Shown piece by piece: positions 21,355 to 26,719 of a stretch of DNA of 64,000 bases. Source of the DNA: Thermincola carboxydiphila (lineage in GTDB: Bacteria; Bacillota; Thermincolia; Thermincolales; UBA2595); contig JAENZX010000003.1 of the NCBI GenBank assembly GCA_016841045.1, positions 85,282 through 149,281 on the forward strand, read 5' to 3'. Position numbers and translations under genes: made by a program. Numbering within the stretch: position 1 is the stretch's first letter; each line of letters starts with the position of its first letter. Below the pieces are notes generated by a model. The model did not search any database. It was not told the DNA's origin and saw only the letters and a program-made list of their open reading frames with translations.

Positions 21355-22239
21355 ATGATAATAGACCTTAAATATCATATCGCGTCAATTGTTGCTGTTT
21401 TTCTAGCTTTGGGCATCGGTATTTTGGTTGGAACAGCGTTGATAGGCAATAATGTTAATGACGTAATTGTTGAAGAGCAAAATAGGATGTTCGAACAATT
21501 AAAGGCTGATCTTTATAAAATGAGGTATGATAACAGAGCTGCAAAAGAAGAAATCGCTTTTTATAAATCATCTATAGAACTTAATAAGGAATTTAACAAA
21601 GCGATTCTTCCGGTGTTAACAGGAGATAAATTAGAAGGGAAGCAAATAGCTGTTGTTGATACCAATAGCTCTAGTTTGCATAATGACTGGATTGAGGCAT
21701 TGCGGAATGCGGGTGCCACTATAACATCTGTTACATCGATATTAGAAGGATTGGAACTTGAGGATGACAACAAGAGAAAAGAAATTTCTACTAAACTCAT
21801 GATTAATGATACCTCAGCTCGCACATTAGCAAGAGACATTTCTACTGAGATTGCAGCAGGAATATACTGCGGCCAAAATATGGAGAATTTAAAATACTTC
21901 GAACATCAGGGAATTATAAAAATATCCGGAGATTATGGAGTTCCAGTTGATATTGTAATAATCGCCGGTGGGAGTAACACCAATCAACGTGAGCAATGTG
22001 AGAATATCGATACACAAATAATTAACTATTTTATAAAAAACGGTGTACCGGTTCTTGGTGTTGAGGAGAGTGACGCAAAGTTCTCCTATATGAAGCAATA
22101 CCAGAAGCAAAAGATTACAACTGTAGACAATGTTGATATGATATCTGGACAGTTTTCTCTGGTCATGGCGGCTGGAGGCATAGACGGAAATTACGGTATA
22201 AAAAGCACAGCACAGCGTCTCATACCGGCATTGCCATAA
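21355..22239 (+). CDS. steB: SteB/MctB-like membrane protein (copper transporter MctB family)
   Basis: 294 aa. It starts with DLKYHIASIVAVFLALGIGILVGTALIG, the signature N-terminal transmembrane helix of the MctB/DUF3186 family. A coiled-coil stretch (QNRMFEQLKADLYKMRYDNRAAKEE) follows, then a soluble alpha/beta domain with QIAVVDTN and VDIVIIAGGS. The family was named for mycobacterial copper tolerance; next to steA the better match is SteB, the partner of SteA in cell division. Single-pass topology with most of the protein outside is inferred. ATG 21355 follows AAAGGAGG. Confidence 0.75.
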   Translation: MIIDLKYHIASIVAVFLALGIGILVGTALIGNNVNDVIVEEQNRMFEQLKADLYKMRYDNRAAKEEIAFYKSSIELNKEFNKAILPVLTGDKLEGKQIAVVDTNSSSLHNDWIEALRNAGATITSVTSILEGLELEDDNKRKEISTKLMINDTSARTLARDISTEIAAGIYCGQNMENLKYFEHQGIIKISGDYGVPVDIVIIAGGSNTNQREQCENIDTQIINYFIKNGVPVLGVEESDAKFSYMKQYQKQKITTVDNVDMISGQFSLVMAAGGIDGNYGIKSTAQRLIPALP

Positions 22240-23878: not shown

Positions 23879-24351
23879 ATGGTTCAAACACCTAGTAAGT
23901 GTGAATCTGATGACCTCAGTGAACAGATAAAGAATTTAAAAGAAGTAAGAAGCCAGTTGGAAGCAATTTTACATTCGACAGATGATGCGATTTCAGTGGT
24001 TGATGAAAAAGGATACGGTATATTAATAAACCCGGCGTATACCAGAATTACAGGACTTAATGAAGCTGATGTGATTGGTAAGCCATGTACAGTTGACATT
24101 GCGGAAGGCGAAAGTATGCATATGCAGGTACTTAAAAGCCGCCAGCCTGTCCGGGGTGTAAAAATGAAAGTAAGTCCCCCATTAATGACTTTTTTAATCA
24201 AAGTTTAGCTCAAATAATAGACTCAACAGAAAAGAATGTGATCATAAAAACTCTTGAGGAAACTAAAGGGAATAAAACCATGGCTGCCAGAAGACTTGGT
24301 ATTGCTACAAGAAGCCTCTACTATAAATTGGAAAAGCACGGGATAAAGTAA
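23879..24351 (+). pseudogene. Sigma-54-dependent activator remnant: PAS domain plus Fis HTH, AAA+ domain deleted
   Basis: The first frame from ATG 23879 (GGGGGTG upstream) encodes a coiled start and a PAS domain ([40 protein letters not shown]). It loses similarity after GVKMKV and stops at 24208. In the next frame, up to TAA 24349-24351, follows a typical NtrC-family C-terminus: [20 protein letters not shown] and GNKTMAARRLGIATRSLYYK. The whole central AAA+ sigma-54 interaction domain (GAFTGA and Walker motifs) is absent. A deletion plus frameshift has therefore removed the engine of a BkdR-type activator. It lies directly upstream of a sigma-54 promoter and ptb-buk, its presumed former target. 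Confidence 0.85.
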
Positions 24352-24369
24352 TTAAGCATAAAGTTGCCT

Positions 24370-24426
24370 GCAAAAAAATTCATATAACGCAAAGAAATTC
24401 ATATAACGCAAAGAAATTCATATAAA
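24370..24426 (+). repeat. Three 19-bp direct repeats upstream of the sigma-54 promoter
   Basis: GCAAAGAAATTCATATAAC occurs three times head to tail at 24370, 24389 and 24408 (first copy with A for G, third ending AAA). The array ends about 95 bases before the -24 element, the usual distance for an upstream activator sequence. A separate pair of AATTCCTGG motifs lies at about 24449 and 24492. They may be binding sites for the activator whose remnant precedes them. Confidence 0.7.
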
Positions 24427-24520
24427 AGGTTTATAAACCTTTGTTGAAATTCCTGGTAGTATCTCAAATAACACTACTTGTATACGTCTTGGAATTCCTG
24501 GCTTAGGACTTATCCTTAAT

Positions 24521-24537
24521 TTGGCACAATATTTGCA
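24521..24537 (+). promoter_or_regulatory. Sigma-54 promoter of ptb-buk
   Basis: TTGGCAC-AATAT-TTGCA matches the -24/-12 consensus YTGGCAC-N5-TTGCW in full. The invariant GG (24523-24524) and GC (24535-24536) are ten bases apart. The ptb start codon lies 45 bases downstream. Confidence 0.9.
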
Positions 24538-24581: not shown

Positions 24582-25502
24582 ATGAAAAGTTTTATCGAGA
24601 TGCTGAATGAAGCAAAAAAATGCCCGCCCAAAAGGGTTGTCATTGCTGTAGCACAAGATCCAGAAGTTCTTGAAGCAGCAAGGTCTTGTCAGAAAAGTGG
24701 TATTGCGAGAGCGGTCCTTATTGGTGACATTGTAGATATGAAAAAAATCGCTTCAGAAAGGAAAATAAACCTTGATGATTTTGAAGTTGCACATGAAACT
24801 GATAGTGAAACAGCTGTAAAACGAGCTGTGTTTATGTGTCATACAGGTAAGGCAGACATTTTGATGAAAGGTGCTGTTGCTACACCAGTTGTACTGAAAC
24901 CGGCTCTTAATAAAACTACAGGATTGAGAACCGGTCGGATACTAAGCCACGTGGCGGTCTTTGAATCCCCCTATTACAATAAACTTATGCTTATGACTGA
25001 TGCCGGCTTGAATATAATGCCCACTTTTGAACAGAAGGTTGATATGGTTAAAAATGCGATATGTGTAGCCAGGGCCCTTGATATAGCTTGCCCTAAAGTT
25101 GCTGTTGTTTGTGGGCAGGAACTGGTAAATATGGATATGCCGAGTACAGTTGATGCGGCTTTATTATGCAAGATGGTTGAGAGGGGACAGATTAAAAATT
25201 GCGTTATCGATGGCCCACTATCTTTGGATTTAGCCCTATCGGAAGAAGCAGCCCGTGCTAAAGGTATTCAAGGAGAGGTTGCCGGAAAAGCTGACATTCT
25301 TGTACTATCTAACATTGATGCCGGGAATGTATTATATAAATCACTTGTTTTTTTTGGTGGTGCAAAGATAACTGGAGTTGTGGTAGGAGCTAAGGTACCT
25401 ATAATAGTTACTTCCAGATCAGATTCGTATGAAGCGAAATTAGCTTCTGTTGCAGTAAGTGTATTAATTTCCAGCAAGGATGAAGCAAGATACCTCCAAT
25501 GA
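24582..25502 (+). CDS. ptb: Phosphate butyryltransferase
   Basis: 306 aa member of the phosphate acetyl/butyryltransferase family. It has VVIAVAQDPEVLEAARSC, MKGAVATPVVLKPALNK, LSHVAVFESPYYNKLMLMTDAGLNIMP and the C-terminal LVFFGGAKITGVVVGAKVPIIVTSRSD. It interconverts butyryl-CoA (or branched acyl-CoA) and the acyl phosphate, which Buk uses to make ATP. ATG 24582 follows AGAGGTG. Pairing with buk and control by sigma-54 resemble the bkd operon of Bacillus, so branched-chain acyl-CoA from amino acids is as plausible a substrate as butyryl-CoA. Confidence 0.93.
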   Translation: MKSFIEMLNEAKKCPPKRVVIAVAQDPEVLEAARSCQKSGIARAVLIGDIVDMKKIASERKINLDDFEVAHETDSETAVKRAVFMCHTGKADILMKGAVATPVVLKPALNKTTGLRTGRILSHVAVFESPYYNKLMLMTDAGLNIMPTFEQKVDMVKNAICVARALDIACPKVAVVCGQELVNMDMPSTVDAALLCKMVERGQIKNCVIDGPLSLDLALSEEAARAKGIQGEVAGKADILVLSNIDAGNVLYKSLVFFGGAKITGVVVGAKVPIIVTSRSDSYEAKLASVAVSVLISSKDEARYLQ

Positions 25503-25578: not shown

Positions 25579-26649
25579 ATGAAAAATTATTATCAATTAA
25601 TAATAAACCCCGGTTCAACTTCAACTAAAATAGCTGTTTTTGAGAACGGTAAGCCTTTTTTTTCGGAAACATTACGTCACCAAAACGAGGATTTGGAGAA
25701 ATTAGGGAGAACTATTGAACAGTTAGAGTATCGTAAAAATCTTGTCATGGAAGCTTTGCAGAAAGCGGGGATAAAAACTGAAGAACTTGATGCAGTAGTA
25801 GGACGTGGAGGCCTCTTAAGGCCTATCCAGGGTGGGACATATATTGTAACTGATAGGATGGTCGCTGATTTAAAGGGTGAAAAAAGAGGTTCACATGCTT
25901 CTAATCTGGGTGGCCTAATTGCATACTCTATTGCAAAAAAACAGGGCATTCCTGCCTTCATTGTTGACCCCGTGAGTGTAGATGAATTGGACCCTCTAGC
26001 AAGAGTATCCGGTATGCCTGAAAATCCCAGAGAAAGTTTTTTTCATGCCCTTAACCAGAAAGCCATAGCTAGGCGTGCTGCTAATGATATGGGAAAAAAG
26101 TATGAAGAAGTTAACCTGATAGTTGCACATCTTGGAGGCGGCATAACAGTAGGTGCACACTTAAGAGGCAGGGTTGTTGATGTCAATAATGCCATACCGG
26201 GAGAAGGTCCTTTTACTCCAGAAAGAAGCGGTGGCGTTCCAGTGGGTAAACTTGTAGAAATGTGTTACAGCGGAAATTATTCCGAGGAAGAAATACGGAA
26301 AAAGCTTATGGGCAGGGGCGGTTTAGTAGCTTATCTGGGAACTAATGATGCTTTAAATGTTGAGAAGCTCATTCATGATGGGAGTGAAGAAGCTTTATTG
26401 ATTTATAAAGCTATGGGCTATCAGGTAGCTAAAGAAATCGGGGCTTGCAGTGCTGTTCTAAAAGGTAATGTGGATGCGGTAGCAATAACAGGCGGAGTGG
26501 CTCATAGTAAATTATTAGTTGGTTGGATAGAAGAAAGAGTCAGGTTTATCGCACCAATTTTGGTTTATCCCGGTGAAGAAGAAATGGACGCGCTGGCGGC
26601 AGGGGGACTTAGGGTTTTGAATGGCTCAGAGGAAGCCGCTATTTATTAA
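25579..26649 (+). CDS. buk: Butyrate kinase
   Basis: 356 aa ASKHA-fold acyl kinase. Landmarks are [17 protein letters not shown] (phosphate 1), [40 protein letters not shown] and [13 protein letters not shown]. It makes ATP and butyrate (or a branched-chain acid) from the acyl phosphate. ATG 25579 has GGAGGT seven bases upstream; an upstream TTG would include that site. It lies 76 bases after ptb with no terminator between, so the pair is one operon. Confidence 0.93.
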
Positions 26650-26719
26650 TATTTAACGGGCCTAAATTGAATAGTTTTGTCGTATTATATTACAACCAAT
26701 GTTGGAGGGATGGATGCAT

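Follow-up and report, generated by a model that had tools for sequence, protein, structure and literature searches.

A probable bkdR remnant beside an intact predicted sigma-54 promoter and the ptb-buk genes of Thermincola carboxydiphila

A gene fragment carrying a PAS domain and a Fis-type HTH, followed closely by a sigma-54 promoter and by ptb and buk, raises the question of what became of the regulation of this operon. The sigma-54 closed complex stays unopened without an AAA+ activator (PMC6615313). The analysis of the window, the whole 64,000-nucleotide stretch of DNA in which the locus lies, leads us to conclude that the fragment is very probably a recently inactivated bkdR gene, and that ptb-buk has been left without its cognate activator alongside erosion of the pathway. 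The features on which the argument is built are collected in Table 1.

Table 1. Features of the ptb-buk locus, in window coordinates
Feature	Coordinates	Strand	Remarks
Putative bkdR 5′ remnant	23879..24208	+	109-aa ORF: truncated PAS domain (PF00989), then out-of-frame residues
Deletion junction, run of five C	24176..24180	+	From sequence, alignment with 14 intact orthologues, and missing length
Putative bkdR 3′ remnant, Fis-type HTH	24184..24351	+	PF02954 HTH_8, E 1.1e-14 (Pfam); out of frame with the PAS part
Relic site TTGCCTGCAAA	24364..24374	+	One mismatch to the relatives' putative BkdR site TTGCRTGCAAA
Three 19-nt tandem repeats GCAAAGAAATTCATATAAC	24370..24426	+	Nowhere else in the genome
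18-nt perfect palindrome AAAGGTTTATAAACCTTT	24425..24442	+	Candidate new regulator site; about 1% of shuffles
Predicted sigma-54 promoter TGGCACAATATTTGCA	24522..24537	+	TGGCAC-N5-TTGCA, 11/11 consensus positions; 60 nt before ptb
ptb, phosphate butyryltransferase	24582..25502	+	Intact; 68-71% identical to family relatives
buk, butyrate kinase	25579..26649	+	Intact; 67-73% identical to family relatives
Site of the vor genes in five relatives (after buk)	26650..26698	+	Nothing left

The lesion itself is readily described. The 5′ ORF is preceded by a plausible ribosome-binding site and matches PF00989 in Pfam with an E value of 3.7e-12 over profile positions 2-79 of 113, so that the PAS domain of the remnant is itself incomplete. 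Relative to intact orthologues, the alignment shows that ∼324 aa are missing, a net loss of 3n+1 bases (about 970), which puts the HTH out of frame with the PAS part. The removed segment runs from the last part of the PAS domain through the AAA+ domain, with its GAFTGA motif, and the lid to the linker; the AAA+ sigma-54 interaction domain and GAFTGA, present in all aligned orthologues, are absent from the window gene. The gene does retain the C-terminal Fis-type HTH expected of BkdR and of an EBP, in a frame that is open and stop-free up to its natural end, and third-codon-position bias is still present. A good start signal for the HTH part was not observed. The preliminary description had reported a PAS domain joined with a frameshift to a Fis-type HTH and devoid of AAA+ motifs, which Pfam and the alignment bear out; its coordinates also hold, and the PAS domain is in fact truncated.

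The identity of the gene follows from its relatives. Intact EBP orthologues of 485-585 aa are encoded upstream of ptb, as the window gene is, in each of the seven order relatives that yielded both genes (G001, G002, G003, G004, G007, G008, and G009), and each has the architecture PAS-(PAS)-AAA+-Fis with GAFTGA; one or more short genes separate bkdR from ptb in G001, G002, and G003. In three Bacillaceae, whose loci were obtained by a Ptb search of genome contigs that did not have the close relatives among its matches, a BkdR-type EBP lies downstream of spo0A and directly before ptb-bcd-buk-lpd-bkd. In a tree of 22 proteins, the Bacillaceae BkdR nests within the ptb-linked EBP clade (support 99/98), from which the five EBPs of this genome that were included, out of about 15, stand apart. 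Because the tree groups the intact ptb-linked orthologues with the Bacillaceae EBP that precedes ptb-bcd-buk-lpd-bkd, the window gene is, by synteny and phylogeny, a predicted bkdR remnant. The genome encodes a single RpoN along with about 15 EBPs that have a strong sigma-54 activation domain, the paralogous regulators that the preliminary description had proposed to look for together with an intact gene at this locus in relatives. None of them is a moved or second copy of bkdR (44% identity for the best full-length match against an intact orthologue), and the deleted piece did not turn up at another place in the assembly. With seven intact relatives, no second copy, and the Bacillaceae BkdR in the same clade, the earlier suggestion that ptb-buk has lost its cognate activation gains support, and we infer that BkdR-mediated, sigma-54-dependent induction of these genes is gone.

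Several features of the relatives deserve mention in their own right. In G001, G002, and G003 (L105, L106, and L107), an inserted GNAT-like gene, which carries a sigma-54 promoter of its own, separates bkdR from ptb. The first of two PAS domains is missing from the orthologues of G004 and G007 (L108:1594-3075 and L109:1663-3123) and G001 (L105:1610-3067) and from the window gene (from 23879), and is retained in G008, which belongs to the same genus as G004; this distribution suggests that PAS1 may have been lost in frame repeatedly among BkdR orthologues. G007 also encodes a second BkdR-like PAS-EBP of 441 aa (L168:5646-6971), whose PAS domain is 61% identical to that of the window gene and which sits downstream of GNAT-like and acyl-CoA ligase-like genes.

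The inactivation appears to be young. Identity between the PAS remnant and intact orthologues is 67-79%, which lies within the 64-98% that the relatives show among themselves over this stretch. When the comparison with these family and order relatives is extended to the neighbours, identity is 45-53% for the gene immediately upstream of the remnant, 63-71% for Ptb, and 67-73% for Buk. Both the upstream gene and Ptb have diverged more in this genome than they have among family relatives; the PAS remnant has not. Because there is a single lesion and the remnants show no excess divergence, the loss of bkdR looks recent on these comparisons.

The promoter has remained in place. The full-consensus -24/-12 element noted earlier before ptb-buk was confirmed; it is the sole full match to the consensus within the window, and the GG and GC doublets of TGGCAC-N5-TTGCW lie 10 bases apart, as predicted for such a promoter. 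Across the genome, TGGCAY-N5-TTGCW has 28 matches versus 3 for the reversed control, and such sites are thus well above chance. A site with 10/11 or 11/11 positions precedes ptb in every order relative checked, with an exception in placement in G002, where it precedes the GNAT gene inserted ahead of ptb.

A further loss lies downstream, a feature absent from the preliminary description. The vor genes, for a 2-oxoacid:ferredoxin oxidoreductase, are found downstream of ptb in six relatives, after buk in five (G001, G003, G004, G007, and G008) and after other genes in G009, where no long buk ORF was seen; a VOR orthologue is also present in G006, on a contig. The window has 49 bases between buk and the next gene, which encodes 77 aa and whose G008 counterpart lies behind vor. 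The best match in this genome to the VOR subunit of G001 is 34% identical, whereas that protein has orthologues 80-87% identical in six other relatives. Judging from its company with ptb-buk and bkdR, the vor product would act on branched-chain 2-oxoacids, and with bkdR and vor both gone the VOR-Ptb-Buk route lacks its activator and its first enzyme. That enzyme and activator have gone together suggests that branched-chain acid fermentation is eroding; from two cases, the link is no more than suggestive. G002 (91% complete) is without vor yet has an intact bkdR, and the two losses therefore need not be linked.

We envisage an ancestor in which a PAS-AAA+-Fis activator would have bound sites upstream of ptb and driven a ptb-buk-vor operon from its sigma-54 promoter, the encoded enzymes serving to break down branched-chain 2-oxoacids oxidatively. 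A deletion in the present lineage has removed the ATPase and its flanks and shifted the frame, and the vor genes have been lost as well. Today, transcription of ptb-buk may be weak, may reach the genes by read-through from their upstream neighbours, or may depend on another EBP.

Expression without sigma-54, whether by read-through or from an unnoticed SigA promoter, is a tentative possibility that is compatible with the inactivation of bkdR and concerns present-day expression only. Scanning the + strand between position 22100 and the start of ptb revealed no intrinsic terminator, so that read-through is possible; the scan discriminates little, however, because four relatives scanned likewise gave no terminator-like sites, and SigA-like matches were near chance level.

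The region between remnant and promoter bears on whether another activator has stepped in. Words resembling TTGCRTGCAAA are common to the ptb upstream regions of the relatives, and TGT-N10-ACA occurs additionally in four of them, three of one genus. The window has a single degenerate putative BkdR site, TTGCCTGCAAA (a match as good arises in 0.8% of shuffles), and TGT-N10-ACA was not found in its ptb upstream region. In addition it has the GCAAAGAAATTCATATAAC repeats and the AAAGGTTTATAAACCTTT palindrome, features of its own. Sought elsewhere in the genome as regulon sites, the repeats proved unique, and near-copies of the palindrome (15 versus 8 in the control, per strand) were not clearly above control.

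That one of the other EBPs took over the sigma-54 promoter through the palindrome, the repeats, or the relic site is unlikely. The 11/11 promoter, the conservation of ptb and buk, the perfect palindrome about 90 nt upstream of the -24 element, and the presence of other genomic sigma-54 sites before acyl-CoA metabolism genes would all fit such a takeover, and a perfect promoter could still be in use; it may simply not have decayed yet, because the loss looks recent. Site motifs seen at other sigma-54 promoters of the genome (ATTGCAAAAATGCAAT, for example) do not occur before ptb, the ptb upstream region shares no meaningful words with those of the other sigma-54 sites, and the lack of clear genomic enrichment of the palindrome also speaks against a takeover. 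A BkdR-type recognition helix is found in none of the genome's EBPs with a readable C terminus, and the closest HTH among these (L014) has a different one; together with the single imperfect relic, this weighs against the earlier proposal that another activator now works through the same sites. The narrower version, in which an unrelated EBP captured the intact promoter by way of a newly formed palindrome and so produced a natural rewiring of a sigma-54 promoter, is improbable. Elsewhere in the genome, one region (L172, G000:C55:163000-181000) has a cluster of six -24/-12 sites in the vicinity of acyl-CoA metabolism genes and an EBP; an ATTGCA-N4-TGCAAT-like palindrome precedes several of these sites.

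It is very improbable that the remnants still yield a DNA-binding protein with a repressing or competing role, whether an HTH peptide or a PAS-HTH fusion made by frameshifting, as the preliminary description had surmised for the HTH fragment. Both frames are undamaged except at the junction, a homopolymer at which frameshifting or a sequencing slip could produce a fusion, and codon bias persists; the recent loss explains that bias, however, the PAS domain is truncated, the putative binding site is degenerate, the HTH part has no good start signal, and nothing positive emerged in favour of such an activity. An assembly or sequencing artefact hiding an intact bkdR retains only the slimmest probability, because this is a 75-contig draft of a single isolate with the frame break in a homopolymer, yet a slip accounts for the frame and not for the missing bases, the locus lies inside a 307-kb contig far from its ends, and the missing piece is nowhere else in the assembly.

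The inactivated bkdR gene is an ordinary lineage-specific pseudogene with an informative context. Since a main enzyme of the pathway is also gone, its loss looks like ordinary erosion of pathway and regulator in one lineage. The locus offers a natural knock-out of a bkdR orthologue with the promoter left in place beside a lost catabolic enzyme, and a simple test case for how fast a sigma-54 promoter decays or is rewired after its activator is lost. It would be wrong to annotate ptb-buk in this genome as belonging to a BkdR/VOR pathway.

The Fis protein, which probably derives from an NtrC-type C terminus, provides a precedent for a Fis-type HTH living without an AAA+ domain; Fis itself is a functional stand-alone protein. 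A literature search for AAA-less EBPs yielded no direct precedent among the matches listed. The locus resembles the Clostridiales sigma-54/EBP regulons (PMC6615313) in combining a Fis-type EBP, putative upstream sites, and a -24/-12 promoter for a fermentation operon, although ptb, buk, and BkdR do not appear in the main text of that study. With the intact regulators of the order relatives it shares synteny, PAS identity, and the sigma-54 promoter ahead of ptb; in contrast to the window gene, these all have AAA+ and GAFTGA, and vor lies downstream at 6/7 loci. BkdR of Bacillus subtilis is a SigL-dependent activator of isoleucine and valine degradation through ptb-bcd-buk-lpdV-bkd (Debarbouille et al. 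1999, as cited in PMC2743287). The window gene is like Bacillus BkdR in its place before ptb and downstream of spo0A and in its HTH type, and the Bacillaceae orthologues, which have another N terminus and 683-690 aa, group with its intact relatives; it differs from Bacillus BkdR in its deleted AAA+ domain and broken frame.
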